From: a virus
Reading direction: 5' to 3' (one strand)
IMG/VR virus record: IMGVR_UViG_3300044568_003096
Span: 1-25,776 of that record
Length of the DNA: 25,776 nucleotides
Position numbers and translations under genes: made by a program. Under the pieces are notes generated by a model. That model saw only the letters and a program-made list of their open reading frames with translations, had not been told where the DNA came from and searched no databases. Shown here one piece after another: positions 1,391-21,604 of this stretch (its first letter is position 1; each line of letters opens with the position of its first letter).

Positions 1391-1422
1391 ACAACCCCTT
1401 TGGTTTAATGTATATATTTAAC

Positions 1423-1430
1423 TATTTATA
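1423..1430 (-). promoter_or_regulatory. T4-type late promoter TATAAATA
   Basis: The minus strand reads TATAAATA at 1430-1423, identical to the T4 late promoter consensus used by gp55 RNA polymerase with gp33 and the gp45 clamp. It immediately follows the stop codon of the epimerase gene and lies 33 bases before the start of the predicted capsid-targeted protein, so it would give a short leader starting near 1416. Late expression fits an internal virion protein. Confidence 0.7.
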
Positions 1431-1459
1431 TTATAACAGTTTTTCTTTAATCCAGTCAA
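1430..1459 (-). promoter_or_regulatory. Sigma70-like promoter overlapping the late promoter
   Basis: On the minus strand TTGACT (1459-1454) is followed after 18 bases by TATAAT (1435-1430). The -35 lies in the last codons of the epimerase gene and the -10 shares base 1430 with the late box. The -35 is embedded in TGCTTGACT, the same element seen at three other promoters in this window. It would allow transcription of the 218-1390 gene before the late phase. Confidence 0.5.
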
Positions 1460-2342
1460 GCACTTTTATTGTTGGTTTCCAATTTGTTGCAAATTTAAAT
1501 TTAGTATTATCAGATAAATTATTTAATACTTCACCAGCTGGTTTTTTGATATAAACTATACTATCAGATAATGTATTAGCAATCTGATTAATAGTATATG
1601 CTTCACCATAACCGATATTAAATACCTGAGCTTTCCACATATCTGGATTAGATTCAAAATGAGTAATGCAATCGATATTAGCCTGAACAACGTCAGTTAC
1701 ATGAATAAAATCTCTTTGTTGAGTTCCATCTCCAGTAACTGTTAAAGGTTTACTATCTTTTAATAATTTCTCAAAAATACCTAAAACTAATGCATACTGA
1801 CCAGACTTTGGAGAACGTTCGCCGTAAACATTAAAATAACGAAGAATAACTGATTTAATTCCATAGATTTCATAATAGTTTCTCAAAAATAATTCTGCTG
1901 CATATTTTGTTGATGCGTATGCATTTAAACAATTTTCTCTCTCAGTTTCTTTTAATGGGAAATTTGTATTTGATCCATAAATTGAAGATGTTGAAGAGAA
2001 AACAATACCTTTAATTTTATTTGCCCTTGCTGCTTCTAATATTGAAACAACGCCTTTAATGTTAGAATCAATTGCCTTTCTCGGATTAGCAATTGACGCA
2101 CCTAATCGAGATTCTGCAGCTAAATGAAAAATAAATTCACATCCGCGACTAATTGATGTTAATTTTTTAGTATCACAAACATCAAAATGATAATTGGTAA
2201 CATTTTTACTTTCATTAAAATAAAACTTATCATTATCTGCTGATAAGTCATCAATGTTAACAACAGTATAACCACAATTAACTAATAAATCAATTAAATG
2301 ACTACCAATAAAACCGCAACCACCAGTAACTAATACTTTCAT
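1431..2342 (-). CDS. NAD-dependent sugar-nucleotide epimerase/dehydratase (UDP-glucose 4-epimerase type SDR)
   Basis: Extended short-chain dehydrogenase of 303 aa. The Rossmann motif TGGCGFIG is at residues 6-13, the DD pair after beta-2 (31-32) fits NAD binding, and the catalytic pair YASTK gives Y142 and K146, with serines SSTSS about 25 residues before. RYFNVYG and the later QRDFIHVTDV are typical of the GalE/WbpP-like branch acting on nucleotide-linked hexoses. It probably makes a sugar donor for the neighbouring glycosyltransferases. Unlike the rest of the cassette it is separated from its upstream neighbour by 66 bases containing its own promoter, and its stop codon abuts the late promoter of the next gene. 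The exact substrate (UDP-Glc, UDP-GlcNAc, or a 4,6-dehydratase reaction) cannot be assigned; the absence of a clear dehydratase TDE triad favours an epimerase. Confidence 0.85.
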   Translation of the reverse strand: MKVLVTGGCGFIGSHLIDLLVNCGYTVVNIDDLSADNDKFYFNESKNVTNYHFDVCDTKKLTSISRGCEFIFHLAAESRLGASIANPRKAIDSNIKGVVSILEAARANKIKGIVFSSTSSIYGSNTNFPLKETERENCLNAYASTKYAAELFLRNYYEIYGIKSVILRYFNVYGERSPKSGQYALVLGIFEKLLKDSKPLTVTGDGTQQRDFIHVTDVVQANIDCITHFESNPDMWKAQVFNIGYGEAYTINQIANTLSDSIVYIKKPAGEVLNNLSDNTKFKFATNWKPTIKVLDWIKEKLL

Positions 2343-2360
2343 ATATCACCATTTATGTTA

Positions 2361-2390
2361 TAGATGCCTTATTATAATACAAAGCATCTA
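2361..2390 (-). repeat. Inverted repeat flanking the -10 box (possible operator)
   Basis: TAGATGC at 2361-2367 and its reverse complement GCATCTA at 2384-2390 are separated by 16 bases that contain the -10 box of the promoter for the epimerase gene. Arm centres are 23 bases apart, about two helical turns, as in operators bound by dimeric repressors. There is no T-run after it on the minus strand, so a terminator is unlikely. Confidence 0.35.
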
Positions 2391-2399
2391 TATTATCAA
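2371..2399 (-). promoter_or_regulatory. Sigma70-like promoter of the epimerase gene
   Basis: Minus strand TTGATA at 2399-2394, spacer of 17 bases, perfect TATAAT at 2376-2371; expected start near 2364, about 20 bases before the ATG at 2342. The -35 is within AGTGCTTGATA, matching the shared TGCTTGA element. This is the only intergenic gap over 50 bases inside the glycan region, which supports a real promoter. Confidence 0.7.
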
Positions 2400-2408
2400 G
2401 CACTTTTT

Positions 2409-3377
2409 TTAATTAAGGAAAACTTTTTTAAATTTTTCCATAACTGTATTTGGGTTAAATTGTTCTACCAGTTTAGAATAATTACCAGTATATGATTTAA
2501 CATTAAGTAACATATCATGCAATTCTTTTTCATCATTATATAACAAACCAGAATCTTTTAATAAATGTACATGATTTTTATCTCTACCGCCATTAAAACA
2601 AAATACAGGTTTATTATGCAATAATCCTTCACAAATAGCTAAACCAAATGATTCTCCATCACTTCTAGCATGAATCATAGCATCACAAGATAAAATAAAA
2701 TCAGTTTTTTCTTGTTCATCAATTATTGGATCAATAAATAAAATATTTGGTAATTCAACAAATTTAAAGGTATTAACAAATACAAAAACATAATTAGGGT
2801 TTTTAAACGCAAATTCAGCAACAGTTTGCATTACCGATCGAATATCAAATTGAAAGAAACCTCCAATTCTACCAATAACAATTTTATCTTTGCCTATTCC
2901 TAATTTTTCTTTAAAATCAATTTTTTGTTCTTTAGGTAAATCAACAATATGTGGAACATACTCAATTTTTCCATCACTTACATGATTTGATAGCCATTCA
3001 GAGATATAAGCATATCTATCCCCATGAGGCTGATTAGCTTGAAATACTGCATGCACTAAATTTTTAGATTTTGTTGTTAATATTCCATCATCAAACCCGC
3101 CTTTGATAAAATAAGTAGCATCAACATTATTATCAGCTACAATTTTATCTAGTTCAGCAAGGGAAGAATAACCAAATACTGGAAATTGTTTTTCAACTTC
3201 TTCTAATACATCTTGTTGAGTTAATGAATCTGAACTAACTCCTGGATCACTAAAATTTGAAGGATACACAATTATGCTTTCATTACCTAAAATTTCTTCA
3301 TTATATTTTGCGTAATCAAGAATTGCAACAGTAGTCCCTCTATGACACAGAGTATTTGATTGAAAAGCTATTTTCAT
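2409..3377 (-). CDS. GT-B fold glycosyltransferase, family 4-like
   Basis: This 322-aa protein has the C-terminal signature of retaining GT4 enzymes: SDGESFGLAICEG around residues 239-251, with the E-x7-E pair E242 and E250 that contacts the nucleotide sugar. The central stretch IVIGRIGGFFQFDI (166-179) is the usual start of the second Rossmann domain. The N-terminal half (about 1-150) is less typical and would bind the acceptor. It should transfer a hexose from a nucleotide sugar to a growing cell-surface glycan at the cytoplasmic face of the membrane. Its start overlaps the stop of the upstream gene by 4 bases (ATGA), so it is coupled to the cassette. It is the last gene of the run that starts behind gp41. 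Donor and acceptor are unknown. Confidence 0.8.
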   Translation of the reverse strand: MKIAFQSNTLCHRGTTVAILDYAKYNEEILGNESIIVYPSNFSDPGVSSDSLTQQDVLEEVEKQFPVFGYSSLAELDKIVADNNVDATYFIKGGFDDGILTTKSKNLVHAVFQANQPHGDRYAYISEWLSNHVSDGKIEYVPHIVDLPKEQKIDFKEKLGIGKDKIVIGRIGGFFQFDIRSVMQTVAEFAFKNPNYVFVFVNTFKFVELPNILFIDPIIDEQEKTDFILSCDAMIHARSDGESFGLAICEGLLHNKPVFCFNGGRDKNHVHLLKDSGLLYNDEKELHDMLLNVKSYTGNYSKLVEQFNPNTVMEKFKKVFLN

Positions 3378-4171
3378 TTAGGTAACATCCATAAAAATTT
3401 ATTCATTTCATTAGTTAAATCAGAAAATCTTTGCAATAATCTAGGAAAATTTAAATTTTCTGCAGGTAAATATTCTCTATACATTTGAATAAAACGTTCT
3501 CTAGTTAACCCATTTGGATTTTGTGCATCCGTATGCGCTCCGCCATTATATGCTAAACGTTCTGATTGGGGAATTCTATTTTGTATTTGTAGTTTTCTAG
3601 CATAGAATTTTTCTGTCATAGGAGCAAAACCATAATTAAAAATAATAAATCTATCAGTATTAATTAATCGCTTAAAATGTCTACCTAAAGGATAATATAG
3701 TTGATTAGTATGTAATGCTCGGGAACCTCTAAAATCAAATGTAAATGGAATATCTAATCCAGTTTTTATTACATCCCATAAATTATTTGTATATGGAATC
3801 TCTTCTGTTCTAAGTTCTTGATCATCAATAAAATACAAACATGGAACTAAAAGAGTCCCTTGTGTGTTAGTTAATGAATCATAATCACCAATCAAAAATT
3901 CAGTAACATTTAAAGCAATTTTCCATACATCATCACCATAAGTTGAAAGATATTCTTGGACTTCTCTATCAACAGCATGAGCAATAAAATCAGAATTTTT
4001 AGATTGAACAATATCCCAAGTTGGACAAATTTCTTTTATTATCTCAATAGATCTATCCGTTGATGCATAATCAATAATAACTCCATGATCAAAATATTTT
4101 TTATGGTGATTTAACCACCAAGGCAAAAGATATTCTTCATTATAAACGTGACTTACAATAACTTTTTTCAT
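3374..4171 (-). CDS. GT-A fold glycosyltransferase, GT2_4-like, with altered metal motif
   Basis: The N-terminus (HVYNEEYLLPWWLNHHKKYF, 8-27) followed by VIIDYASTDRS matches the glyco_tranf_2_4 / GT92-like family, where the loop after strand 2 carries the D-x-S-x-D-x-S pattern. In most relatives the second motif reads D-x-D-E-F; here the equivalent place reads ALNVTEFLIGD (near residue 90), so the first aspartates are absent while the E-F is kept. Either this subgroup binds the donor without the usual metal pair or it is altered in function. The C-terminal part contains GGAHTDAQN, a common feature of this family. It is 265 aa and translationally coupled on both sides. Family call moderately sure; substrate unknown. 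Confidence 0.65.
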   Translation of the reverse strand: MKKVIVSHVYNEEYLLPWWLNHHKKYFDHGVIIDYASTDRSIEIIKEICPTWDIVQSKNSDFIAHAVDREVQEYLSTYGDDVWKIALNVTEFLIGDYDSLTNTQGTLLVPCLYFIDDQELRTEEIPYTNNLWDVIKTGLDIPFTFDFRGSRALHTNQLYYPLGRHFKRLINTDRFIIFNYGFAPMTEKFYARKLQIQNRIPQSERLAYNGGAHTDAQNPNGLTRERFIQMYREYLPAENLNFPRLLQRFSDLTNEMNKFLWMLPK

Positions 4172-4615
4172 TTAAATTTCCACATAATCAACACAAATTC
4201 CATATATTTTTCTATTCGCATAAAAATTAAAATCAACATGTTTAGAAAAATCTAATATCACAATATTTTTATAATATTTTGCGTGCTTATCAGGATAAGC
4301 CCAAATAAATTCTTGTGATGTTAAAGTAACTTCATCTTGTTGATGCCAAAAATAATTAAATCCTAAATTATTAAATTTATATAGCGCATCTTGATTTTTA
4401 CAATGAATCCACAACCATTCTTTTCTCTCTAGTAAATACGAAAATGATATTTTATAAATTGGTTTATCATGCCCCAAATAAAAATTTTCGTCTATATACC
4501 AAACATCAATTTCAACATCATATCCTTTTGAAATGCATAAATTTATTTGATCCGGAGAATTTTCAGTCAAAAAATTTGGTCCATTTAAATTACCTCTATG
4601 TGCAATTATTTTCAT
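4172..4615 (-). CDS. GDPD-like (glycerophosphodiester phosphodiesterase superfamily) protein
   Basis: The preferred start is ATG 4615, giving 147 aa beginning MKIIAHRGN: it has GGAG 6 bases upstream and overlaps the preceding stop as ATGA. An ATG at 4651 is in frame but would add 12 residues not typical of the family. Conserved points of the PLC-like/GDPD TIM barrel are seen: H6-R7, E19 (TENSP), E35 and D37 (VEIDVW) and GHD at 48-50, then WIHCKN and YFWHQQD. It is shorter than classical GDPDs (about 240 aa) and matches a compact version found in polysaccharide gene clusters. The reaction in glycan assembly is not established; it could act on a glycerophosphate or phosphodiester-linked substituent. 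Confidence 0.7.
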   Translation of the reverse strand: MKIIAHRGNLNGPNFLTENSPDQINLCISKGYDVEIDVWYIDENFYLGHDKPIYKISFSYLLERKEWLWIHCKNQDALYKFNNLGFNYFWHQQDEVTLTSQEFIWAYPDKHAKYYKNIVILDFSKHVDFNFYANRKIYGICVDYVEI

Positions 4616-5343
4616 AAATAACTCCGTATTCCATTCTCTCTTTGTATGCATTCAAGTAAAGGTAATATATCTGCTGTAAGATTATTACTATCAATAGAAT
4701 ATTTCAACAACGAATGCGGTATATGTACACTACTTCTTTCGCTTGAATACGCATAAAATTCATTTATCATAAAATCAATAACATTAACAATATTTTTCTT
4801 TGTTGATATTATAATTTGATCGTTCACTTGCATTGATTCAGTATTTCTTTCTGTACTATTGCATACAACAATTTTTTCATGTATATTTGAAAAATTGATG
4901 CAAGATAAATCTTTGTGAATCAAATCAGTTCTAGTTTTGATAATTATATCATATGAAATATTATTATCAATTTCATATTGAGTAATTAAATCTAATCCTC
5001 TTTTAATTTTCCAAAATTGTAGAAAATGAGAAGAGTCCCCAAATAACATATTTTTATTAAATTTCTCAGATTCAGTAGTATAAATTTCTTCTGCGTATTG
5101 TTGATTATCTATTAATATATCTTTAATAGAAAAATCTACAAACTTATTTTTAATCTCTTCATCGTTTAATGCAATATCATTATGAAAATTTAGAGAACGT
5201 TTCATAAAATAGTGATATTGATGCGAATTATTATATGTAGAAACAAAATAATCAGGCGATAAAAATTTAAATGTATCTAATATATTTTGTTTACATAATT
5301 CTAAAGTTCGTACATTTCCTGCTAATAAAACAGCAACTTTCAT
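4612..5343 (-). CDS. Putative surface-glycan glycosyltransferase (LLSGNVRT-type, WavE-like)
   Basis: This 243-aa protein opens with VAVLLAGNVRTLELC, then DYFVSTYNN and later FLQFWKIKRGLDLI and YDIIIKTRTDLIHKDL. This set (GNxRT, FISTY-like, YDxIIKxRxDL) is what I associate with a family of LPS/capsule-cluster proteins such as WavE that are thought to be glycosyltransferases. No classical DxD is obvious except the RTDL stretch. It overlaps both neighbours by 4 bases. The role in glycan synthesis comes mainly from family resemblance and context; catalytic function is inferred. Confidence 0.55.
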   Translation of the reverse strand: MKVAVLLAGNVRTLELCKQNILDTFKFLSPDYFVSTYNNSHQYHYFMKRSLNFHNDIALNDEEIKNKFVDFSIKDILIDNQQYAEEIYTTESEKFNKNMLFGDSSHFLQFWKIKRGLDLITQYEIDNNISYDIIIKTRTDLIHKDLSCINFSNIHEKIVVCNSTERNTESMQVNDQIIISTKKNIVNVIDFMINEFYAYSSERSSVHIPHSLLKYSIDSNNLTADILPLLECIQRENGIRSYL

Positions 5344-6137
5344 TTAGAAAACTCCCGTAATGCTTGATGCCATTTATAAAATACATGATCCGCAAATAAA
5401 TTAGGCTGATCAAAATAACATTGCAGCCAAACTCCTTGTTCATCATCTGCAATTTCATTTTGTTGAAATATTAATAACCATTTATGACAAAGTTTTTGAA
5501 ATTCTTGCATTTTTTCTTTACTTGCCATAAAGAAATACGCTCCAATTTTTTCAGGAGCATATTGTAAGCTATAAATTACATCTTGATCCCTATCAGTAAT
5601 AGAATTAATTAAACAAATATTGACTTTGTTTAAATCAAATTTATTCAAATCTAAAGGTCCAGTAGGTAAAAATTCACCAGAAGTTTTTTTATAAAAATAA
5701 CCAAAATCGATCCACGCAACATAATCAGTATCAATTAAATTATTATCAATGGCATAATTAACAACATCTATTTTACTATGTGTTAATATTGTATATAAAG
5801 GATTAACATTTTCTGGGTAATTTTTATCTATTCTATGCTGTACTAATGATTGATATGTAAAACTAGACATAATTTCTTTTTCTCTATCTAATCTAGACCA
5901 AGACCAAAGATTAGACATAACCCATTCTTCGTTAATAGGAATAAGAGTTATTTTAGAACCAATAACCTTTTCTTGCAATTTATCAATATATTTGTCATCA
6001 ATAAACACAATCATTGTATAATCATAATCTAAAAATTTTTCAAAAGCTGAAATATATTCCTGAACTTTTCTAGGGTAAAGATTCCAATTTTCTCTTCCTA
6101 TATCATAAAACATTGATACTAATGTAATATCACTCAT
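5340..6137 (-). CDS. WlaTC/HtrL-like glycosyltransferase
   Basis: I use ATG 6137, giving 265 aa starting MSDITLVSMFYDIGRENW; it begins just before the stop of the upstream gene would clear (2-base gap), with AAGG about 10 bases upstream. An in-frame ATG at 6200 would extend into the preceding gene and adds 21 basic, low-complexity residues. TLVSMFYDIGR, the YISAFEKFL stretch, the MIVFIDDKYID strand and the central YVAWIDFGYF resemble the WlaTC/HtrL glycosyltransferase family, found in Campylobacter LOS loci and many phages. WIDFG takes the position of the DxD-like motif. It likely adds a sugar to the same surface glycan. It overlaps the next gene by 4 bases. Substrate unknown. Confidence 0.65.
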   Translation of the reverse strand: MSDITLVSMFYDIGRENWNLYPRKVQEYISAFEKFLDYDYTMIVFIDDKYIDKLQEKVIGSKITLIPINEEWVMSNLWSWSRLDREKEIMSSFTYQSLVQHRIDKNYPENVNPLYTILTHSKIDVVNYAIDNNLIDTDYVAWIDFGYFYKKTSGEFLPTGPLDLNKFDLNKVNICLINSITDRDQDVIYSLQYAPEKIGAYFFMASKEKMQEFQKLCHKWLLIFQQNEIADDEQGVWLQCYFDQPNLFADHVFYKWHQALREFSK

Positions 6138-6139
6138 TT

Positions 6140-7522
6140 TTAATTTACCTTTTTTAATTTTAAAAATGTATTCAAATCTTCTGGGGTTCCAATTCCCCAC
6201 ATTTCTTGCACATAGCTAACTTTAATTTTTTTATTATCAGAAATAGCTTCATTAATTACTGGACAAACATAAAATTCATTATTAACCCTAATATTTTTTT
6301 CTATCATTTGTTCAGCATATTTGATATAATCAGAACCTTTAGCCCAATAATAAACTCCAACACTAGCTATATTACTAATTGGATCTTTTTCAGCTACTTG
6401 CTCAACAAACCCATCTAAACCAAGTTTAGCGAAACTCCATTTAGGGTGAACTGCATTAAATACTAACATACCACCATCAATGTCATTATTAGAAAAAGAA
6501 TACATAGTTTCATTTGAATTCCATTCAATATATTGATCAGAATTTGCAATTAATAATGGATTATCATTATCTATAAATTCTTTAGCAAGTAATGTTGTGC
6601 AAGCAGCTCCTTCAGTTAAACCATCAATAACAACAATTTTACAATTAGGTTTAATTAGATTGAGCAAATGTTTAATGTTATATTTTTCTAAATGTTCTTG
6701 TTGTACAACAAAAATATAATTAGCATCAATATTTAAATTGTCAACTACAACCTGAATCATTGGCTTACCATTAACATCAATTAATGGTTTAGGAAAAGTA
6801 TATCCTTGTTGAGAGAAACGCGAGCCTAAACCAGCCATTGGAATTAATACATTTAATTTCGCATCAATCCAAGGAATAGTATTTTCTTTTGTAACAGAAT
6901 TAATCTCATTTATTTTCATTTCAATTTTAGCCAATGATAAATCATTTGTATTTTCAACTGCCAATAAATTAGCTCCAGAATCTAAAGCTCCTTTTCTACC
7001 AATATGACTATCTTCAACAATAAGGGTGCTTTTTGGAATAGCGTTTAAAGCTGTCATACATTTCCAATACATTTCAGGAAATGGTTTTGGTTTAGTAACA
7101 TCTTCATTACTAACGTAATAATCAACATATTCTAAGATACCAAGTTTTAATAGACATAATTTAACCGATTCTCTAATTGAGTTTGTAGCTACAGCAATTT
7201 TAATATCTTTTGTTTTTAACCAAGAAAATATACTAATAAGTTTAGAACTTGGTTGTATTTGTTTTAATATATCAAATGTAGCATATTGTTTATCATTCCA
7301 AATTTGATCAAAATATTTTTTTTCTAAACCTTTATTAATTGAAAGCAATTCTAATTTTTTCGTGGTTGTTAATCCATCATATTTACTCAAATGCTCATCA
7401 ATTGATATTACATATTCATTACCAATCTTTAATAAAGCATCATTTAATGCAGTATAATGCCAATCCTTAGATTCAACTAAAACTCCATCCAAATCAAATA
7501 TCACTAATTTATTATAATTCAT
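6140..7522 (-). CDS. Bifunctional HAD phosphatase - sugar nucleotidyltransferase fusion
   Basis: Two enzymes are fused in 460 aa. Residues 1-200 are a HAD hydrolase: motif I DLDGV with D10 and D12, motif II VATNS (111-115), the lysine of motif III in TKPKPFP (143-149) and motif IV VEDSHIG (169-175). Residues 223-460 are an NTP-transferase: LNVLIPMAGLGSRF (223-236) is the nucleotide-binding loop and FPKPLIDVNGKPMI (243-256) the following signature; NSDQY is the metal-binding region and WGIGTPEDL near the end is the usual closing motif. The pair would dephosphorylate a sugar phosphate and activate a sugar-1-phosphate with a nucleotide, feeding the glycosyltransferases. AAAGG precedes the ATG by 6 bases. 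Which sugar and which nucleotide cannot be told. Confidence 0.85.
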   Translation of the reverse strand: MNYNKLVIFDLDGVLVESKDWHYTALNDALLKIGNEYVISIDEHLSKYDGLTTTKKLELLSINKGLEKKYFDQIWNDKQYATFDILKQIQPSSKLISIFSWLKTKDIKIAVATNSIRESVKLCLLKLGILEYVDYYVSNEDVTKPKPFPEMYWKCMTALNAIPKSTLIVEDSHIGRKGALDSGANLLAVENTNDLSLAKIEMKINEINSVTKENTIPWIDAKLNVLIPMAGLGSRFSQQGYTFPKPLIDVNGKPMIQVVVDNLNIDANYIFVVQQEHLEKYNIKHLLNLIKPNCKIVVIDGLTEGAACTTLLAKEFIDNDNPLLIANSDQYIEWNSNETMYSFSNNDIDGGMLVFNAVHPKWSFAKLGLDGFVEQVAEKDPISNIASVGVYYWAKGSDYIKYAEQMIEKNIRVNNEFYVCPVINEAISDNKKIKVSYVQEMWGIGTPEDLNTFLKLKKVN

Positions 7523-7537
7523 ATAAAACCTTTATAT

Positions 7538-8254
7538 TTAAGCATAATTATGTATTAATACATCTCCATTATAATTATCTGTATTAATTTCAGTTAAACT
7601 TGGATCTGGGTCAGAACAAGAAACATATTGATTCACAATAAAACCTAAAAATCCTTCTCCATCAAAATATCTATCTGAATGTAAATAAACTTTATCTAAT
7701 AATCCTAAATCGCATATATTTTTATGAACTTGCATCTCAAAATTAGCATGCCACACTTCAGGTTTTTCTAAAGAAAATGCCTGTTTGAAGAAATCAATTT
7801 CACAATAATATGCAAGAGTTCCTACAGTAATTTGTTTATTACCCCATCCATTAGAAATAAGGCGTTTGTCATAATTATCGCATATATATTGACATCTTTG
7901 TATTAATTCGTTATAATCTAAAGTTGAATCGCAATCATAAGCTAATTTAAAAATATGAGTAAACCCAAGTCTTTGTAAATAATTAACTGCATTATGCATA
8001 CTAGTTAATTCAGCCATACCATGAGTTAATTTATCTTTAGGCAATCCATTTATTTGGAAACTATTATCTGAATCATAAATAAACGCATTACAATATTGTT
8101 GCGTTTCTATATCAATTGGGCTATGCGAAACTAAACAAATATAATATGAAGTATTTTCGGATATTACCTTACAAAGATTTTTAGTTATAGAAGCTTTAAC
8201 ATCTGAATATTCTCCGCCTGTGTATGTTGCAATAACTATTGCTGCTTTATGCAT
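7538..8254 (-). CDS. Probable GT-A type glycosyltransferase
   Basis: This 238-aa protein starts with a strand and loop like GT-A enzymes (AAIVIATYTGGEYSDVKASI, 4-23), where the next element would bind the nucleotide. FTHIFKLAYDCDST (98-111) places a D-x-D (D107, D109) after a hydrophobic strand, as in metal-dependent family 2-like transferases. A C-terminal SDRYFDGEGFLG stretch may contribute the acceptor side. I do not recognise a named family. Position inside the cassette, 15 bases before the HAD fusion gene and 7 bases after the upstream gene, supports a glycan role. Confidence 0.5.
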   Translation of the reverse strand: MHKAAIVIATYTGGEYSDVKASITKNLCKVISENTSYYICLVSHSPIDIETQQYCNAFIYDSDNSFQINGLPKDKLTHGMAELTSMHNAVNYLQRLGFTHIFKLAYDCDSTLDYNELIQRCQYICDNYDKRLISNGWGNKQITVGTLAYYCEIDFFKQAFSLEKPEVWHANFEMQVHKNICDLGLLDKVYLHSDRYFDGEGFLGFIVNQYVSCSDPDPSLTEINTDNYNGDVLIHNYA

Positions 8255-8261
8255 TTTTCAC

Positions 8262-8963
8262 CTATAATAATTTTAAATTTGATTTTCTATTCATATAAAA
8301 ATGTTTCTTATATGAATATTCTATCGGTTGTTCAGCCCATCCATCAAAATCTGAATCATAATACAAATCAAAATCTACGTTCAGCAAATCAGCCATTACA
8401 GCAATTCCAGTAAAAGTAGAGATAAATTTACCGCATTTTTTTATTATGTTTGCATTATGCATACAACTTTTAGAATAATCAATAAAATAACAATCATTAA
8501 ATTTACCAGAATCATATAATATTCCGCTTGGGCGAGATTTATCATTTGTTGATAATAAACACCTATCTCCAACATAAAATAATCCAGAACAATCAATATC
8601 TATATCTTGAATTTTTAAAATATAATCATTATCAATATCAAAATTTATACCATACAATCCAAACTTTTTTTGATATCTTGTTGTTTCCATTGGAGCAATT
8701 CCATCATATATAGGATCAACCCAACTATTAAATGGAATAAAATCTCGTTTTTCTTCAATAGGAACTTCATGATCAAATTTAACCCAGTCAATAAAATCTT
8801 GATATTCTATTAGTTCTCTTATTCCATTAAATTTAATCATATCTGATTGTAATATCAATTGTATTTTATGATTAAACGTTTTACTCATACCAGATAAAAC
8901 GGGAAGGGAATTTAAAAAATCTCCTAAATTTGATGTTCCAATATCTCCATATAATTTTATCAT
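8262..8963 (-). CDS. GT9/heptosyltransferase-like protein
   Basis: At 233 aa the protein is shorter than usual heptosyltransferases (about 320-350 aa). Its start, MIKLYGDIGTSNLGDFLNSL, resembles the G-x-G-D acceptor loop of GT9 enzymes followed by the PVL helix, and the C-terminal ISTFTGIAVMADLLNVDFDLYY looks like the usual S-x-x-T-G-x-x-x-x-A donor-binding helix. The middle part is reduced. It may transfer a heptose or similar sugar in a GT-B fold, or be a degenerate relative of the GT9-like protein encoded two genes upstream (9574-10296). It overlaps the methyltransferase gene by 4 bases. Confidence 0.5.
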   Translation of the reverse strand: MIKLYGDIGTSNLGDFLNSLPVLSGMSKTFNHKIQLILQSDMIKFNGIRELIEYQDFIDWVKFDHEVPIEEKRDFIPFNSWVDPIYDGIAPMETTRYQKKFGLYGINFDIDNDYILKIQDIDIDCSGLFYVGDRCLLSTNDKSRPSGILYDSGKFNDCYFIDYSKSCMHNANIIKKCGKFISTFTGIAVMADLLNVDFDLYYDSDFDGWAEQPIEYSYKKHFYMNRKSNLKLL

Positions 8964-9580
8964 ATTTTCTTATATACGCATGTTAAAATATTAGAATATT
9001 CTTCATTATTTTTTCTTATGGTATCTTCAATATTAGTATAAGAAACTAAAGCAAAACCAGAATCTTTCATAAAATTATCTAAAGATTCTTTATTAAAATG
9101 CCATATATGTTCATTGGGTCTTCTATGTTTCCATGTAGCAAACCAGTCATCAGAAAAATAATGGCATTCAGGAACCGATATACAAATATAATTACACTTT
9201 AAATCTTTAACAAAAGATATATCGTCAAAATGTTCTAATGAATCAAAAAAAGTAATTACATCAAAAAAAGAATCTAAATTATATAATTTTTCACAAGAGT
9301 TTGGCAAAGGATAATCAGAAACATCAAAACCATAACATTTTGTATTATTTTTAGAACAAACTTTTAAAAAAGCTCCATTACCATACCCAACATCGACTAT
9401 TGATTCTGGAATTCTACCTAAAACTCCAACTAAATAGCCATATCTTAAATATGACATATAATTAGTCAATTCTCCATAAGAATCATATCTTACTCTCGAA
9501 TAATTTAAACTATAATCAATGTTTTCAGTAATTTCATTTTGTTTAATAACTTTATTAACTATCTCATAATTTTCTAACAT
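8960..9580 (-). CDS. SAM-dependent methyltransferase, class I
   Basis: Rossmann-like methyltransferase of 206 aa. Motif I IVDVGYGNGAFL (61-72) binds S-adenosylmethionine, GFDVSD (84-89) gives the acidic residue (D86) that holds the ribose, FFDVITFFDSLEHFDD is motif IV with the usual D-S-L-E-H, and HRRPNEHIWHFNKESL is typical of the Methyltransf_23 type found in polysaccharide clusters. It probably methylates a sugar hydroxyl or a terminal residue of the glycan, which in O-antigens often caps chain growth. It overlaps the upstream gene by 7 bases and the downstream gene by 4. Confidence 0.75.
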   Translation of the reverse strand: MLENYEIVNKVIKQNEITENIDYSLNYSRVRYDSYGELTNYMSYLRYGYLVGVLGRIPESIVDVGYGNGAFLKVCSKNNTKCYGFDVSDYPLPNSCEKLYNLDSFFDVITFFDSLEHFDDISFVKDLKCNYICISVPECHYFSDDWFATWKHRRPNEHIWHFNKESLDNFMKDSGFALVSYTNIEDTIRKNNEEYSNILTCVYKKI

Positions 9581-10296
9581 AAATTTTCACCAAAATAAGT
9601 TCCTTCACAATCTAACCAATATGTTCTTATCTCATTATTAAATAAAGAATAAAATGGAGTTGTGTGTAATAACCCTCTAGAAGAATAATAATAACGTTTT
9701 TTTAATGGACCTCTATCTAAAGCTGAAGCAAAATGACTTGTTCCAGTATCTCCTCCAACAAATATTTCACAATCTAATATATGAGAAATATTTTCCATAA
9801 AATCTACGCTAATATCAAACCCATTAGGAATATCTATATTTTTTATAAATGATTTATCTGAAATGCAAATAACCTTTTCATATCCATCATATTTGGAATA
9901 TTTAGCTAAAATATCAACAAATACATGAGGTGGCCAATTTCTATAAGTATTATATGGAGCATCAAATATAGGAAAAATTGCTATTTTCTTTTTTATATCT
10001 TTTTGATTTTTTATTTTAATCAAATCTCCAGATATAGCTCTAAAATCCCATAAATTTACTTTTCTCCAATTTAATAACAAGTCTCCTGGAGATATAGAAA
10101 AATAATCAGTATTTTCCAATAAAAAATTAAAAAATTTCTTAGAATATTCTTCTGAATTTACAGAACCTTCCATCATATGAAATTTAACTGGCAAATTATA
10201 TATTTTTCGTAAATATTCAATAATATTACAAGCACCAAGTAAATCACCATTTCGCAATGGACCGCCGAAAACTTCTTTAACTATATTTACAATCAA
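9574..10296 (-). CDS. GT9-family (ADP-heptose transferase-like) glycosyltransferase, TTG start
   Basis: A GT-B protein of 240 aa. FVGGDTGTSHFASAL (179-193) is the donor-site signature of heptosyltransferase-like GT9 enzymes, where the G-D-T-G-x-x-H helix binds the nucleotide; IAIFPIFDAPYNTYRNWPP (106-124) is the start of the second domain, with the N-x-W-P of the family. The first codon is TTG (10296-10294); AGGTGA sits 5 bases before it and no in-frame ATG or GTG precedes it. An overlapping ATG in the leader is in another frame and stops after two codons. It is likely to add a heptose-like residue to core or O-chain sugars. Confidence 0.7.
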   Translation of the reverse strand: MIVNIVKEVFGGPLRNGDLLGACNIIEYLRKIYNLPVKFHMMEGSVNSEEYSKKFFNFLLENTDYFSISPGDLLLNWRKVNLWDFRAISGDLIKIKNQKDIKKKIAIFPIFDAPYNTYRNWPPHVFVDILAKYSKYDGYEKVICISDKSFIKNIDIPNGFDISVDFMENISHILDCEIFVGGDTGTSHFASALDRGPLKKRYYYSSRGLLHTTPFYSLFNNEIRTYWLDCEGTYFGENLC

Positions 10297-10304
10297 AACA
10301 TCAC

Positions 10305-11120
10305 CTATATTATCAATTTATCAATAATATTATATATTGAATATTTTTTAACATATCCTAAAGATTTAATTTTACTTATATCCAAAACCATATCTTTAGT
10401 TTGAACTTTTTTGTGGAAATCAACAACTTCTATAGAATTTATTTCTGATTTAGAATTTAATTTATCTTTAGCATAATAAATTATATCCTTAAAATTAACA
10501 AATTCTCCGTTACCAACATTATAAATTTGATCTAAATCTCCTTTATCTAATATCAAATTTATGGCATCAATTGCATCATCAACATAAATATAATCTCTAT
10601 ATAGATCTCCCCCATTATATAAACTAATAGGTTTATTTTCTTTAATTTCATTTATTAGAAATTGAAGAGCATTTTTTTGTTTAGATACCTTTTTATCAGA
10701 TTCACCAAGAATATTAGCCAAACGTAATATTCTATATTTTATACCGAATGTTTCGCAATAAGAAATTAATAACTGTTCAGCAGTTCTTTTTGTTATACTG
10801 TAAAACCCTTTTGGGTCACAATAAGAATTTTCTCTAGCGGGTAAATCAACATTACCATAAACAAACCAAGAACTAATAAAATTAAATGTTACATCTTTAT
10901 TTTTACAATTTTCCAAAACTTTAATAAGAGTTATTAAATTTGTATCTATATCAAGATAAGGATCAGTAAAAATATTATAATTGTGTACTGTTGAAATAAA
11001 ATATAATATATTTTTAGATTTAACTGAAAAATCGTCTCTATCGTTCTTAATGACGTTGGGCGTCATTTCACAATAACGCCCCCCTACAAATCCATTTCCA
11101 CCCAATACATTTACTTCCAT
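10305..11120 (-). CDS. SDR-family NAD(P)-dependent reductase/epimerase (CDP-abequose/paratose synthase-like)
   Basis: Extended SDR of 271 aa, on the short side for the family. The cofactor motif is NVLGGNGFVGG (4-14), the catalytic pair FYSITK gives Y107 and K111, and FISSWFVYG supplies the serine. DLYRDYIYVDD (about 175) is the usual C-terminal substrate-domain motif. It overlaps the RfbH-like gene directly upstream by 10 bases. In Salmonella and Yersinia the product of RfbH and its reductase is reduced at C4 by an SDR (RfbJ abequose or RfbS paratose synthase), so this gene is a good candidate for that last step. The assignment rests on adjacency plus fold; it could instead be a general 4-epimerase. 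Confidence 0.7.
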   Translation of the reverse strand: MEVNVLGGNGFVGGRYCEMTPNVIKNDRDDFSVKSKNILYFISTVHNYNIFTDPYLDIDTNLITLIKVLENCKNKDVTFNFISSWFVYGNVDLPARENSYCDPKGFYSITKRTAEQLLISYCETFGIKYRILRLANILGESDKKVSKQKNALQFLINEIKENKPISLYNGGDLYRDYIYVDDAIDAINLILDKGDLDQIYNVGNGEFVNFKDIIYYAKDKLNSKSEINSIEVVDFHKKVQTKDMVLDISKIKSLGYVKKYSIYNIIDKLII

Positions 11121-12394
11121 TCTTTACATACTCCCTCAATATAATTTAAAATTTTATCATTATATAATGGGGAACATCCTAAGAAAAATACATTACTTAA
11201 TGCTAAATTAGAATTAGGGTATTTTTTATAATCATCTAAATGCTTATATCCAGGATGCAATAAAATATTTCCGCTAAAATAATTTCTTGTTTGAATTTTA
11301 TTATCTTCAAAATACTTAACTAATTTTTCTTTTAATTGTTGAGAGTCGCAAAACACAGGAACTCCGAACCAAGATGGATCTGACTTTTCTGTTGCGTTAA
11401 TTACTCTGGCTCCTGGAATATTAGATTCGATATATGTTTGAATTATTTGTTTATATTCTCTACGTTTAGACTCAAGATAATCAAACTTTTCTAACTGTTC
11501 AATACCAATTGCTCCTTGTAAATCCAGCGGTTTTAAATTATACCCCATTGTTGCAAAAACATATTTATGATCAACAATACCATCGTAATTTTCTAACCAA
11601 TTATCAAATCTATTTCCGCAAGTTCCACAAGCTAAAAGATTATTTTGTCCTACACAATAACAATCTCTACCCCACCATGTAATACTTTTTGCAATTTTAA
11701 TTAATTCTAAATCATTAGAACAAACCATTCCGCCTTCGCCAGTAGAAATATGATGAGCCGGATAAAAAGAAGTAGTCCAAGCATAATAATAATCAGTAAT
11801 TAAATTACCATTCCAATTCGTACCTAATGAATCGCAATTATCCCCAAGTAAAGTAATATTATATTTTAAACATAATTCCGTTAATTTATCTATATCTGGA
11901 GGATTACCTAAAACTGGAGAAACAAAAATTGCTTTTGTTTTTGACGTAATTTTTTCTTCAATTAAATCAACATTAAAGTTTAGTGTATCTAATTCAATGT
12001 CAATAAAAACTGGTACTAATCCATTTTGCGAAATTGGAGCTATTGTTGTAGGAAATCCAACAGGAGAAACAATAATTTCATCTCCATCTTTCCAATTTAA
12101 ACGTTTTTTTACTGCAGAAATTAAAACTAAGTTTGCAGAACTACCGCTATTAACCATTTGAGAATATTTAACATTAAATCTTTTGCTAAACTTTTTTTCA
12201 AACTGTGCAACTTTAGTACCAGAAGTCACCCAATTACCATTTAAAAATGTATCTAATGCAGCATAAATTTCTTGATGATCCCATAATTGACCAGAGTATT
12301 GTATAAAGTCGCCATCTTTATAATCATCATAATTTTTGATATATTTTGGTGTTACATTTAGTGATAGTAATTCAATTATTTTTTGTATATTCAT
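11111..12394 (-). CDS. rfbH: RfbH-like CDP-4-dehydro-6-deoxyglucose 3-dehydrase (E1 type)
   Basis: A 427-aa DegT/AspC-fold PMP/PLP enzyme, the size of E1. Three features separate it from ordinary sugar aminotransferases. First, SFYPAHHISTGEGG (209-222) has histidine (H214/H215) where aminotransferases carry the PLP-binding lysine. Second, cysteines C245, C247, C256 and C259 occur in GRDCYC and ACGTCGNRFD, matching the E1 region that binds a [2Fe-2S] cluster. Third, DHKYVFATMGYNLKPLDLQ follows as in RfbH. GDNCDSLG (184-191) supplies the aspartate for the cofactor pyridine nitrogen. The enzyme removes the C3 hydroxyl from CDP-4-keto-6-deoxyglucose on the way to 3,6-dideoxyhexoses. RfbG, RfbF and the E3 reductase (RfbI) are not in this window, so they must come from elsewhere in the phage or from the host. 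Confidence 0.88.
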   Translation of the reverse strand: MNIQKIIELLSLNVTPKYIKNYDDYKDGDFIQYSGQLWDHQEIYAALDTFLNGNWVTSGTKVAQFEKKFSKRFNVKYSQMVNSGSSANLVLISAVKKRLNWKDGDEIIVSPVGFPTTIAPISQNGLVPVFIDIELDTLNFNVDLIEEKITSKTKAIFVSPVLGNPPDIDKLTELCLKYNITLLGDNCDSLGTNWNGNLITDYYYAWTTSFYPAHHISTGEGGMVCSNDLELIKIAKSITWWGRDCYCVGQNNLLACGTCGNRFDNWLENYDGIVDHKYVFATMGYNLKPLDLQGAIGIEQLEKFDYLESKRREYKQIIQTYIESNIPGARVINATEKSDPSWFGVPVFCDSQQLKEKLVKYFEDNKIQTRNYFSGNILLHPGYKHLDDYKKYPNSNLALSNVFFLGCSPLYNDKILNYIEGVCKEWK

Positions 12395-12403
12395 AATATT
12401 AGT

Positions 12404-13063
12404 TTATAATAAAATTGATGGAATCATACCATCGGTTGTAAACGTTCCATTTACTATATCGTCACAGCGTTTCTTAAATAAATCGAGGTTTTGTTGATAT
12501 CTACCTTGATATAAATGATAGATAGAATCACCAAATAAAGTTCCTATACCAAAATTACCATAATTACTTAATCGCCAAACACCCTCAATAGGTTTTCTTT
12601 CAAAGTAAGTAGGATAAATTGCGTGATAAAATACTTTATTTTTTTCTGCTACATGAGAAATTTCCTCAGCAATATCAGACCTTGGGTTTTCAACAAAGGA
12701 CGGTTTACCTAAATCATTCCAACATTTTCTCGAAATAAAGAAAAACCCTGGACCAGCAAAAATATGATTATATGGATATATGTGATTAGAAGATTGCGCA
12801 ATACCAACAAAAGTTCCGGATTTAACAATATCTTCTATTACAGTTTCTATAATTTGTTTATTTAATGGAACACAATCGTTATCTAAAAACCCAATAATAT
12901 CCGATTTAGAATGTTCTAAAATATAATCCATCCATAATCCTGGATTAACTCCGTCAAGATTATGATAGTTTACAGGAATATTTAAATACTCCATAACTTT
13001 TTTATGCGACTCAATTAAATACAAACCATTATTCCAATATAATGTATTAATCTCCACTTTCAT
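12404..13063 (-). CDS. GT-A type glycosyltransferase (DND motif)
   Basis: This 219-aa protein has SDIIGFLDNDCVPLNKQII (54-72) with a D-N-D (D61, D63) after a hydrophobic strand, the donor/metal site of GT-A enzymes. NHIFAGPGFFFISRKCWNDLG is the next conserved block, as in galactosyltransferase-like proteins where a G-x-x-x-F-x-x-R-x-x-W follows the catalytic site. The N-terminal strand (EINTLYWNN) is atypical, so the family remains open. It is separated by 9 bases from the RfbH-like gene downstream and overlaps the cupin gene upstream by 4 bases. Confidence 0.65.
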   Translation of the reverse strand: MKVEINTLYWNNGLYLIESHKKVMEYLNIPVNYHNLDGVNPGLWMDYILEHSKSDIIGFLDNDCVPLNKQIIETVIEDIVKSGTFVGIAQSSNHIYPYNHIFAGPGFFFISRKCWNDLGKPSFVENPRSDIAEEISHVAEKNKVFYHAIYPTYFERKPIEGVWRLSNYGNFGIGTLFGDSIYHLYQGRYQQNLDLFKKRCDDIVNGTFTTDGMIPSILL

Positions 13064-13404
13064 AAAAAATTCTCACTAGGGATTACTCTATATGAATCTT
13101 CGTCCATATCTTTTGTTGAAAATTCAATAATATCTGAATCTTCTAATCCAATAATTTGGTGGCGTAATCCAGGAGGTAAATAAAATGTATCGCCTTGATT
13201 TAAATCTATAGTATCAGTATAAAACTCATCAGTTAGCGAATAGTTAATTCTAACCTTACCATTTAACACATAAAAAGTTTCATCTTTAATCTTATGATAG
13301 TGAAATGAACCTTTTTTATCTTTATTTACATGAATAATCTTACCGCAATATAAATCTGTATTAACAATAATATTTTCATATCCCCACAATTTTTCAACTA
13401 TCAT
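13060..13404 (-). CDS. Cupin protein (mannose-6-phosphate isomerase type II / ManC C-domain-like)
   Basis: Single-domain cupin of 114 aa. It starts KLWGYENIIVN and YCGKIIHV, as do the phosphomannose isomerase-like cupins. Metal ligands are visible: H35 and H37 in FHYHKIKDETFYVLNG with E42, and H82 in PPGLRHQI. Such small proteins occur beside sugar-nucleotide genes and may isomerise or epimerise a sugar phosphate; standing alone it may also be an accessory binding protein. The gene overlaps the downstream glycosyltransferase by 4 bases and the upstream one by 11. Confidence 0.75.
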   Translation of the reverse strand: MIVEKLWGYENIIVNTDLYCGKIIHVNKDKKGSFHYHKIKDETFYVLNGKVRINYSLTDEFYTDTIDLNQGDTFYLPPGLRHQIIGLEDSDIIEFSTKDMDEDSYRVIPSENFL

Positions 13405-14116
13405 TTTTACTCCATGGATATTTTGTATATTTTTCTTTCATTAAAGTATTTCCATGCTCAAAGAATTCTTTAGTAACAGAACCTTCATTACCATCAAGTC
13501 TATAGTTTAGAGAATAATAACCAGAACAAGAAAAGTTAGGAAAATACTGTTTTAATGCTTGAAATACAACTCTATCTTGACCCCAGCCACCGTGCCAAGC
13601 TCCAGCAATTGTTACAGCAACTTTATTTGTAAAACAATAACAATTAGTATCTATATGATAACAATTAGTCCAAGCTTCCCATTTACCTAAACTTTCACAG
13701 TCATCTTTACAAATAAATTCTTCTTGCTTATCAAAAATATTACGCAAACTATAAACCCAATCTGATTTTGTTGATTCCAATTCAGTAATCATAGTTTCTA
13801 TATGATTTGGAGCAAACCAATTATCTTGGTCCAAAAAGAAAATATAATCTTCATCAAGTAAATGCGAATATGCTGCATAAATTCTATGACCATAAAACCC
13901 ATTAGCTCCAACATTTTCTTGTAAATAGTCGACACGAATAGGAACATTAAATCCCTTACCTAAAAGCATCTTTTTAACTTTAGAAAAAAACTGTTTACCA
14001 TCAACAACAATATGAACTGTTACATTTTTATAAGACTGCTCAGCAATACTCTGAATAGATCGTATAAGAGTATCAGATCCTGTTGTTGGAATTATTACTA
14101 CTGCACTTTTCGTCAT
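13394..14116 (-). CDS. Family 2-like glycosyltransferase
   Basis: Classic GT2-like protein of 240 aa: AVVIIPTTGSDTLIRSIQSI (5-24) binds the nucleotide, VHIVVDG (34-40) is the second strand with its aspartate, and YIFFLDQDNWFAPNHIE (91-107) holds the D-Q-D metal motif (D96, D98). WHGGWGQDRVVFQAL later matches the E/QDR catalytic-base area. It is the first gene of the glycan cassette and its start overlaps the stop of helicase gene 41 by 4 bases (ATGA), so ribosomes can pass straight from the replisome gene into the sugar genes. Substrate unknown. Confidence 0.8.
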   Translation of the reverse strand: MTKSAVVIIPTTGSDTLIRSIQSIAEQSYKNVTVHIVVDGKQFFSKVKKMLLGKGFNVPIRVDYLQENVGANGFYGHRIYAAYSHLLDEDYIFFLDQDNWFAPNHIETMITELESTKSDWVYSLRNIFDKQEEFICKDDCESLGKWEAWTNCYHIDTNCYCFTNKVAVTIAGAWHGGWGQDRVVFQALKQYFPNFSCSGYYSLNYRLDGNEGSVTKEFFEHGNTLMKEKYTKYPWSKNDS

Positions 14117-15510
14117 ACTTTAAATCCATCAAATGATTTCTTTTCAAATTTATTTTGTTTTTGCATTGATTTATACGATTCAGTTGGATCCATGCTTCCA
14201 GAATCAGTAATACCTTCCTGAGCTGATTGTTCAACATCAAACAATTTCATTTTAGCTCGATCAACACCAACAACAAATCGTTTATTTAAATTTAAATCTC
14301 TATAACGATTTTTTAACTGTTTAATCATCATTTGATTTAAATCATATAATTCTTCGCTGTTAATAATTGCACACATAAAATCAGCAATAGCAGGAACACC
14401 AAATGATTCTGATACATCACTCATATCAATATCACTACTTTGAGATCCACCGCGAGTAGTTTGAGTTGCAGTAATAACTGGAATACTAAACTCTTGTGCA
14501 AATCCACGCAATTCTTGAGCAATAGCCTGAATATATGTATAACTATTAATACTACCAGACATTTTCATTCTAGAACTAGCACAAATATTTAAATAATCAA
14601 CAAATACTACATCAGGAACAAAGTTCTTTTTTAACCGTAATTCATTTAATAAAGTTCTAAAATGATTTACATTTGCGGCAGCTGTTGGATATTCTTTGAC
14701 AAAAAGTTTACCGACAGTTTTTGATTTAACATAATTTATCTTTTTATCAAAAGACTGTTTATCTAATTCCATTAAATCGTCCATACTAATCCGCAATAAA
14801 TTAGCATCAATACGTTTTGCAATTTCTTCTTCAGCCATCTCACAAGTTATGTATAAAACATTTTTGCCCGATAATTGAAAATCAGCTGCAAAATTACACA
14901 TCATTAAACTTTTACCGCCATGAGGAGGAGCTAGAATAACATTTAATGTTTTCTTAGGCAATCCACCATTTGTTATAAGATTAAAATAATTTAAACCAAA
15001 TGGAACTTTTTCTTCGGTTCTATGGTAATATTCATAACGATTATCAGCATCACCCAAATAATCATGACCAACACTAGAATCAAATGAAATTGATAAAGCT
15101 TCAGATAATAATGTTGGAATACTACCTTTTGATAAATCTTTATGCTTACCATCAAGAATTGTGATTGATTCGCGAACAGCATTAAAAATTGCTTGATCTT
15201 GACAAAAAGTTTCAGTTTTATCAACTAACCATTCCAAATCAACAGTTTCTGCTCGTGCTTCATGTAAATCATTTAATAATGTTTGAGTTTCTTTATATTC
15301 TTCATCAGATATAGGTTTTTCATTAAGTTGAATAATAAGAGCTTCATATGTTGGGATATTTCCATAATTAGTAATGAACGAACTAATCTCGTTAAAAATT
15401 GTTCGTTCATTTCTATCATTAAAATAATCCGCTCTTAAAAAAGGTAATACTTTTCTAGTATATTCTTCATTATAATGAAGATTCTTTAATATAAGCGTGT
15501 TCAGATTCAA
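14113..15510 (-). CDS. 41: Replicative DNA helicase gp41 (DnaB-like), TTG start
   Basis: This 465-aa protein (T4 gp41 is 475 aa) has the RecA-like helicase core. Walker A is LAPPHGGKS (193-201), the catalytic glutamate lies in YITCEMAEEE (E224), Walker B is VVFVDYLN (301-308), and EALSISFDSSVGHD (137-150) is nearly identical to T4. It unwinds the lagging strand ahead of gp43 as a hexamer with primase gp61, which is not in the window. The start is TTG 15510: GGAG lies 6 bases upstream, the N-terminus aligns with T4 gp41 from its second residue, and no ATG occurs near. It overlaps the preceding gene by 41 bases. The C-terminus departs from T4. Confidence 0.93.
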   Translation of the reverse strand: MNLNTLILKNLHYNEEYTRKVLPFLRADYFNDRNERTIFNEISSFITNYGNIPTYEALIIQLNEKPISDEEYKETQTLLNDLHEARAETVDLEWLVDKTETFCQDQAIFNAVRESITILDGKHKDLSKGSIPTLLSEALSISFDSSVGHDYLGDADNRYEYYHRTEEKVPFGLNYFNLITNGGLPKKTLNVILAPPHGGKSLMMCNFAADFQLSGKNVLYITCEMAEEEIAKRIDANLLRISMDDLMELDKQSFDKKINYVKSKTVGKLFVKEYPTAAANVNHFRTLLNELRLKKNFVPDVVFVDYLNICASSRMKMSGSINSYTYIQAIAQELRGFAQEFSIPVITATQTTRGGSQSSDIDMSDVSESFGVPAIADFMCAIINSEELYDLNQMMIKQLKNRYRDLNLNKRFVVGVDRAKMKLFDVEQSAQEGITDSGSMDPTESYKSMQKQNKFEKKSFDGFKV

Positions 15511-20829: not shown

Positions 20830-21258
20830 TTATTCTATTTGAAATATTTTAGGCTTTTTATTATCTGGTATTACATTTCTTAATGATACTGATAACATAC
20901 CATCAGATAATGATACTTTATCTACTTCTACAGTATCAGCTAAAGTAAATGATCTAGTAAAATCTCGTTCAGCGATTCCTTTATACAAAAACTCTGTATC
21001 TTTTTTAGATTCATCTGATTTAATTTTACCTGTAACTATAAGTTTACCTTCGTTTAATGTTACTGTTAGTTGATCTTTCGTATATCCAGCAACTGCCATC
21101 TTAATAATAAATTTCTCATCAGAGTTTTTTATAATATCGTATGGAGGAAAACCAGTTTGTGGCTTTTCCAATTCAGTGATTCTACGAAATAATTCGTCAA
21201 AACCAATTAATGCTGAATTATGAATTGTTCTAAAAGTAGTTAAGTCTTTAGCGTACAT
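20830..21258 (-). CDS. Small heat-shock protein Hsp20 (IbpA-like)
   Basis: A 142-aa alpha-crystallin-domain chaperone. It follows bacterial IbpA closely: LIGFDELFRRI (18-28), GFPPYDII (37-44), MAVAGYTKDQLTVTLNEGKLIVTG, then FLYKGIAERDFTRSFTLADTVEV and, near the end, the family motif SLRNVIPDNKKPK, with I-F-Q-I as the C-terminal I-x-I-like anchor. It holds unfolded proteins in an ATP-independent way. T4 has none, but T4-like phages of aquatic bacteria commonly carry one; possible roles are protection of replication proteins or help in capsid assembly. It follows the PAAR gene after a gap with hairpins, has AAGGAG 5 bases before the ATG and ends at its own terminator. Confidence 0.92.
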   Translation of the reverse strand: MYAKDLTTFRTIHNSALIGFDELFRRITELEKPQTGFPPYDIIKNSDEKFIIKMAVAGYTKDQLTVTLNEGKLIVTGKIKSDESKKDTEFLYKGIAERDFTRSFTLADTVEVDKVSLSDGMLSVSLRNVIPDNKKPKIFQIE

Positions 21259-21337: not shown

Positions 21338-21604
21338 TTAGTCACCAGCAAAAACGTTATCTGAACCCGTTGCTGGGTGACCGCAATTAGCAATATCGCC
21401 AGCTCGGCATAAAGGTTTACCATTAACAAATACAGTTCCTGAACCTTGTATCATTATTGGTCCATCATGAGGAGCTAATCCAATATGCCCTGCTACTGCG
21501 TCGTCTTTTCTAACAGCAGCTTTATTATTAACAAAAACATCAGGCGAACCCTGAATAAGATTCGCCCCAGCTAAGTCAGTTTCTTTCCTAGTAACTCCAG
21601 GCAT
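21338..21604 (-). CDS. PAAR-domain spike-tip protein (gp5.4-like)
   Basis: I use ATG 21604 (88 aa); an in-frame TTG one codon earlier is less likely, since the ATG overlaps the upstream stop as TGATG and GGAG lies 5 bases before. Two repeats typical of PAAR proteins are seen: GSPDVFVNNKAAVRKDDAVAGH and GSGTVFVNGKPLCRAGDIANCGHPATGS. Candidate metal ligands are the His of AGH, the His of APHDG and the Cys/His of NCGH near the end. PAAR proteins cap the gp5 needle and sharpen the tail tip; T4 gp5.4 is the example. Its place between regA and hsp20, far from other tail genes in this window, is notable. Confidence 0.9.
   Translation of the reverse strand: MPGVTRKETDLAGANLIQGSPDVFVNNKAAVRKDDAVAGHIGLAPHDGPIMIQGSGTVFVNGKPLCRAGDIANCGHPATGSDNVFAGD

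Follow-up and report, generated by a model that had tools for sequence, protein, structure and literature searches.

A long-loop branch of RfbH-type Fe-S sugar dehydratases in aquatic T4-like phages, with an SDR partner and a proposed dTDP-3,6-dideoxyhexose pathway

Textbook accounts of O-antigens include the 3,6-dideoxyhexoses, whose synthesis takes place on CDP or, for colitose, on GDP. The closest characterised relative of the phage enzyme described here is E1 of Yersinia pseudotuberculosis (AscC/DdhC, CDP-6-deoxy-L-threo-D-glycero-4-hexulose-3-dehydrase; 3bcx, 3bb8). In E1 and in SpnQ (dTDP-4-keto-2,6-dideoxyglucose 3-dehydratase of the spinosyn pathway), the 4-keto sugar is bound to PMP as a Schiff base, an active-site histidine abstracts a proton, the hydroxyl at C3 is lost, and the hexoseen is reduced by two electrons via a [2Fe-2S] cluster (PMC8987622). 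E1 receives these electrons from E3, while SpnQ, also an Fe-S PMP enzyme, pairs with ferredoxin or flavodoxin systems instead (PMC8987622). By contrast, ColD (GDP-4-keto-6-deoxy-D-mannose 3-dehydratase) contains no Fe-S cluster (PMC8987622). Cyanophages and pelagimyophages are known to carry clusters of glycosyltransferase and nucleotide-sugar genes, for which a role in altering the host O-chain and excluding other phages has been proposed (PMC7029224, PMC9602691).

The phage enzyme shares with E1 its fold, a histidine in place of the PLP lysine, the start of the cluster motif (C-X57-C-X1-C) and about 33% identity, but differs in the last motif spacing (X11 here, X7 in E1), in being accompanied by a dedicated short-chain dehydrogenase/reductase (SDR), and in lacking CDP-pathway neighbours and, in the phage records searched, E3. 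It shares the fold and the histidine with ColD, but has four putative cluster cysteines. The O-antigen-cluster enzyme RfbH (NF011936) is its best curated family, but the score lies under the family cut-off, the protein belongs to a separate clade, and classical RfbH mostly adjoins RfbG and RfbF. SpnQ, likened here by description and not by sequence, offers a proposed parallel in its dTDP substrate, although its own substrate is a 2,6-dideoxy sugar of an antibiotic pathway. The phage locus resembles the cyanophage and pelagimyophage LPS/glycan clusters of T4-like aquatic phages in its many glycosyltransferases and nucleotide-sugar enzymes; the available text of those reports does not describe a dehydratase-SDR module or a dTDP linkage (PMC7029224, PMC9602691).

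The glycan cluster and its dehydratase-SDR pair

The window, that is, the whole 25,776-nucleotide stretch analysed (a 25.8-kb virus record), comes from a T4-like phage. Its DNA polymerase reaches at best 44.7% identity among the phage matches listed, where T4-like phages of Synechococcus come nearest. The features of the glycan region, with functions as predicted, are as follows.

218-1390: DUF6267 gene, flanking the cluster
1431..14116, minus strand: whole glycan-modification cluster, 16 same-strand ORFs, mostly overlapping, between the DUF6267 gene and the gp41-type helicase gene
1431..2342, minus strand: NAD-dependent nucleotide-sugar epimerase, GalE-like; STSSIYG active-site segment, not that of a 4,6-dehydratase
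3374..4171, minus strand: glycosyltransferase family 2-like protein
5340..6200, minus strand: HtrL/YibB-family protein
6140..7522, minus strand: HAD phosphatase/mutase-like (beta-phosphoglucomutase-like) domain fused to a sugar-1-phosphate nucleotidyltransferase domain
8960..9580, minus strand: SAM-dependent methyltransferase
10305..11120, minus strand: partner SDR, 271 aa, proposed 4-ketoreductase; GxxGxxG and YxxxK present, 4,6-dehydratase Asp-Glu pair absent
11111..12394, minus strand: predicted RfbH/E1-type PMP- and [2Fe-2S]-dependent NDP-4-keto-6-deoxyhexose 3-dehydratase, long-loop subfamily; H214, C187, C245, C247, C259 (protein numbering)
13060..13404, minus strand: small cupin protein
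13394..14116, minus strand: glycosyltransferase family 2, abutting the helicase gene
14113-15510: gp41-type helicase, flanking the cluster, with UvsX and DNA polymerase beyond

An initial annotation of this DNA had placed an E1/RfbH-type dehydrase at 11111-12394 without naming the strand. The gene occupies exactly these positions on the minus strand, as an intact ORF of 427 aa with an ATG start and no internal stop, while stops abound on the plus strand. The product belongs to Pfam DegT_DnrJ_EryC1, and in an NCBIfam search its best curated family is NF011936 RfbH (372 bits, below the 423-bit cut-off), followed by the PseC aminotransferase family at 150 bits. A PDB sequence search placed Yersinia E1 (3bcx/3bb8) first, with E 5e-78, and ColD next, with 2e-52; lysine aminotransferases ranked far below both. 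The same E1 structures were the top Foldseek matches (E 2.9e-33, TM 0.82, 33% identity) to a predicted model of the protein (pLDDT 86, pTM 0.86), in which the cluster loop (residues 243-253) is modelled with low confidence.

The predicted catalytic histidine, H214 (SFYPAHHIS), aligns to the residue mutated in 3bb8 (the E1 H220K mutant) and stands where a PLP aminotransferase would have its catalytic lysine. H214 and the four putative cluster cysteines (C187, C245, C247 and C259) are invariant in an alignment of 43 relatives, in agreement with the histidine replacement and four-cysteine motif first read from this DNA. The two observations that the initial annotation had named as counter-evidence, a grouping with aminotransferases and cysteines that vary among close homologues, were both looked for and neither was found. 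An extra loop cysteine, C256 (LLAC), was considered as a fifth ligand and rejected, because relatives have N, E, K or other residues there. It is thus well supported by sequence and predicted structure that 11111-12394 encodes a genuine Fe-S sugar dehydratase of the E1/RfbH kind, and the best functional call is C3 deoxygenation of an NDP-4-keto-6-deoxyhexose.

The SDR gene overlaps the stop of the dehydratase gene by 10 bp. Its product matches Pfam Epimerase (E 2.5e-29) and carries the GxxGxxG and YxxxK motifs of extended SDR ketoreductases and epimerases, its likeness extending to both. Where RmlB has STDEVYG, with the Thr-Asp-Glu triad, the SDR has SSWFVYG; it is therefore predicted to be a reductase or epimerase, and its candidacy as the missing 4,6-dehydratase was rejected on the absence of the Asp-Glu pair. 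The SDR accompanies the dehydratase in 80 of the 82 viral long-loop loci, its start lying -40 to +60 bp from the RfbH end in 68, although some of these loci are near-identical contigs and hence not independent. Among cellular loci, the partner is present in 17/23 long-loop but 0/61 classical ones. The gene order is mostly RfbH-SDR in phages and mostly SDR-RfbH in bacteria, and the link between the two has thus outlived rearrangement. The SDR reaction is probably reduction of the 4-keto group, which would complete the pathway.

The interval between the gp41-type helicase and DUF6267 genes is a recurrent site of glycan clusters (window 218-15510, L006, L010, L016, L023, L034), and the position of the dehydratase-SDR pair within it is conserved in many phages. 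The HAD-nucleotidyltransferase fusion has relatives in L007, L047 and L052, and could form an NDP-sugar from a phosphorylated sugar. Elsewhere in the window, the core region contains genes for an Hsp20 small heat-shock protein (20830-21258, minus strand) and a PAAR-motif protein (21338-21607, minus strand). A 241-aa ORF on the plus strand (23946-24671), amid minus-strand genes, overlaps the start of the clamp-loader gene; it has no Pfam hit, and the N-terminal part of its product resembles, by eye, a GIY-YIG/Seg-type homing endonuclease.

With its glycosyltransferases, methyltransferase, epimerase and nucleotidyltransferase fusion, the window cluster would fit the proposal that such phages alter host glycans. 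Another use of the sugar, on phage DNA or virion proteins and not on the host surface, appears unlikely. DNA glycosylation is known in T4-like phages, and several cluster genes have no assigned function, leaving room for such a role. However, no member of the thymidylate-synthase/dCMP-hydroxymethylase family was found in eight sister records, so that hydroxymethylcytosine-based DNA glycosylation is improbable and was rejected, and 16 clustered genes, several glycosyltransferases and a methyltransferase among them, are better suited to an oligosaccharide.

Phylogeny of the long-loop branch

The cluster motif of the phage enzyme is C-X57-C-X1-C-X11-C, whereas the motif is C-X57-C-X1-C-X7-C, or its final portion C-X1-C-X7-C, in E1 and all classical RfbH proteins seen; the loop is therefore four residues longer. 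The X11 spacing is common to all long-loop relatives, and actinobacterial RfbH homologues above the cut-off have the short loop in all cases where the loop is covered. In a maximum-likelihood tree, from an alignment that kept the loop columns, the long-loop proteins form one clade (support 100/100), apart from the short-loop, classical RfbH clade (100/99) and from cysteine-free His-type relatives (L168-L179 and others), which entered solely as outgroup. The phylogeny with bacterial RfbH suggested by the initial annotation thus gave a divided answer: the protein does not group with aminotransferases, a distance that rests on the NCBIfam, PDB-search and Foldseek scores, as true Lys aminotransferases were outside the tree, but it stands apart from classical RfbH.

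Within the long-loop clade, 14 of the 16 viral sequences, including that of the window, form one clade, and the other two, from Synechococcus phages, fall elsewhere, which implies at least two gains of the gene by phages. The cellular sequences in the clade have a scattered distribution, spanning several bacterial phyla as well as archaeal bins. The sister of the main phage clade is L082 (JANXME010000087.1), a 3.7-kb contig binned as Actinomycetes that contains only RmlB-RmlA-RfbH-SDR and may be a misbinned phage fragment. Two other loci depart from the usual arrangement. The huge phage L212 (LR756502, 642 kb) carries, within the same 17 kb, a long-loop RfbH with 60% identity and a second relative with 31% identity (genes at 425-1552 and 8001-9230), and the SDR partner is absent from that stretch. 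In L086 (4006-8971, a Bacteroidia bin), which also lacks the usual SDR partner, the genes after the long-loop RfbH encode a 577-aa protein resembling TPP-dependent enzymes (by eye) and then an SDR-containing protein of 649 aa; the set may belong to a branched-chain sugar route similar to that of yersiniose.

Nucleotide linkage and electron supply

The initial annotation had assigned the enzyme to the route to abequose, paratose, tyvelose and ascarylose, and had suggested searching for RfbF, RfbG and RfbI; gene neighbourhoods point away from that route. Of the 61 classical cellular loci, 46 have RfbG and 33 have RfbF within 1.5 kb, but neither was found near any of 106 long-loop loci, although the flanks searched there were mostly longer. 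Restricted to cellular loci, RfbG adjacency is 46/61 for classical against 0/23 for long-loop genes (Fisher p 6e-11). In 13 large viral records and the Synechococcus phages RN05-S and S-H68, RfbF was not found, apart from one 13.8-bit fragment, and no RfbG hit reached the curated cut-off. An E3-type, RfbI-like flavoprotein (FAD_binding_6, PF00970) was absent from the 14 phage records searched; the window itself is a 25.8-kb fragment. A classical CDP pathway encoded by the phage itself was rejected on these absences.

It is still conceivable, if somewhat more doubtful than a DNA or virion role, that host RfbF and RfbG make CDP-4-keto-6-deoxyglucose and that the product is an abequose- or paratose-type sugar. 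The closest characterised enzyme, E1, acts in this pathway, a host could provide the CDP precursors, and RfbF, joined in one case by RfbG, is encoded by some of the bacteria that have a long-loop gene. However, the long-loop proteins branch apart from classical RfbH, their loci lack the RfbG adjacency of classical ones, and in G014, a complete Nostocales genome, two long-loop copies occur but no RfbG passes the cut-off.

RmlB (dTDP-glucose 4,6-dehydratase) is instead the recurring neighbour. It passes the curated cut-off in five phage records, and its end lies 0-35 bp ahead of RfbH in 10 viral loci, of which some are near-duplicates. The order is RmlB-SDR-RfbH in the marine virus AG-345-D19, RmlB-RmlC-SDR and then RfbH in S-H68 and RN05-S, and RmlB-RmlA-RfbH-SDR in L082; in L089, RmlA and RmlB lie just upstream on the opposite strand, and in the Nostocales chromosome locus L167 (no RfbG above cut-off) RmlB lies 0.5 kb upstream of RfbH. 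L008 has an RmlA homologue of 348 bits (cut-off 361). From this RmlB/RmlA linkage, dTDP is the likeliest substrate nucleotide. The linkage is suggestive only, because RmlB also serves rhamnose and other sugars. RmlB is absent from some large sister records, e.g. G004 (163 kb), and the window, a fragment, encodes no 4,6-dehydratase in its glycan cluster or elsewhere, so that substrate supply in such phages is assumed. The loop difference does not by itself set the nucleotide, because a short-loop gene beside RmlB also exists (L193).

A little less probable again is another 4-keto sugar as substrate, whether GDP-4-keto-6-deoxymannose, a UDP sugar or the product of a diverged RmlB-like 4,6-dehydratase. 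Many viral loci contain such a diverged family (about 233-237 bits, cut-off 365), which keeps the dehydratase motif and lies about 2-6 kb upstream of RfbH (e.g. L039 6478-7509, L062 4005-5084 and relatives), and several host-type genomes encode GDP-mannose 4,6-dehydratase. However, the latter enzyme was found in none of the 14 viral records searched, on which ground a phage-encoded GDP route was rejected, and it is true RmlB that directly adjoins the RfbH-SDR pair, in several lineages.

As for the electron donor, PF00970 proteins of the E3 kind are also absent from the complete genome G014, and genes for Fer2 2Fe-2S ferredoxins were found only in the two Synechococcus phages among the viral records searched. 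The absence of E3 from the phage records searched and the ferredoxins of the Synechococcus phages tentatively favour a ferredoxin-fed, SpnQ-like reaction, and electrons would probably come from ferredoxin with no dedicated E3.

Distribution, selection and the proposed module

The initial annotation had regarded the gene as rare in lytic phages, a view that its distribution overturns: relatives are carried by at least 336 viral contigs and by several Synechococcus phages, of which the cultured S-B05, S-B43 and RN05-S have the dehydratase-SDR pair and one has a record already annotated with the product name, and rfbH/ascC/ddhC has been listed among viral auxiliary genes in surveys (PMC10653327, PMC11295528). 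In a limited search of the open-access literature, no earlier account of the long-loop subfamily emerged, nor of the SDR partner or the dTDP linkage. By its sequences, the branch is separate, and is widespread in phages and bacteria. Phage copies are under strong purifying selection (dN/dS about 0.04-0.11 for pairs with measurable dS), and the dehydratase signal in family, residues and selection is far beyond chance. A host-derived passenger without phage function, which bacterial relatives at 48-63% identity might suggest, is very improbable given this selection, the single deep phage clade, and the SDR pairing and gp41-DUF6267 position conserved in many phages.

The preferred reading, to which we give a probability of roughly 0.6, is a module of 3-dehydratase and 4-ketoreductase SDR that converts dTDP-4-keto-6-deoxyglucose into a dTDP-3,6-dideoxyhexose, is fed by ferredoxin, and serves a cell-surface glycan. 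RmlB, encoded next door in some sister phages, would supply dTDP-4-keto-6-deoxyglucose; the window phage would rely on a host RmlB or on one encoded in the unsequenced remainder of its genome. The dehydratase would strip the C3 hydroxyl from this NDP-4-keto-6-deoxyhexose, and the resulting hexoseen would be reduced via the cluster by two single-electron transfers, the electrons probably coming from host ferredoxin, or from phage ferredoxin in the Synechococcus phages. The SDR would next reduce the C4 ketone to give the NDP-3,6-dideoxyhexose, which phage glycosyltransferases would then use, most likely altering the host surface glycan. A change of O-antigen or a block to superinfection is plausible.

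A separate branch with its own reductase-like gene and dTDP-glucose genes probably makes an unusual surface sugar by an unstudied route. A broader reading, held tentatively and at somewhat less than even odds, is that these Fe-S 3-dehydratases form a branch not recognised before, one that is common among T4-like phages of aquatic habitats, occurs here and there in bacteria, and together with the SDR constitutes a dTDP-3,6-dideoxyhexose pathway, some phages carrying the chain from RmlA and RmlB to the last reduction and installing a sugar that may lie outside the host's own repertoire. If so, dTDP would be a third nucleotide route to 3,6-dideoxyhexoses, and automatic 'rfbH' labels in viral metagenomes could point to the wrong pathway. 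The re-glycosylation of the host surface by lytic aquatic phages, often proposed and rarely tested, would then have a concrete, testable enzyme pair behind it.
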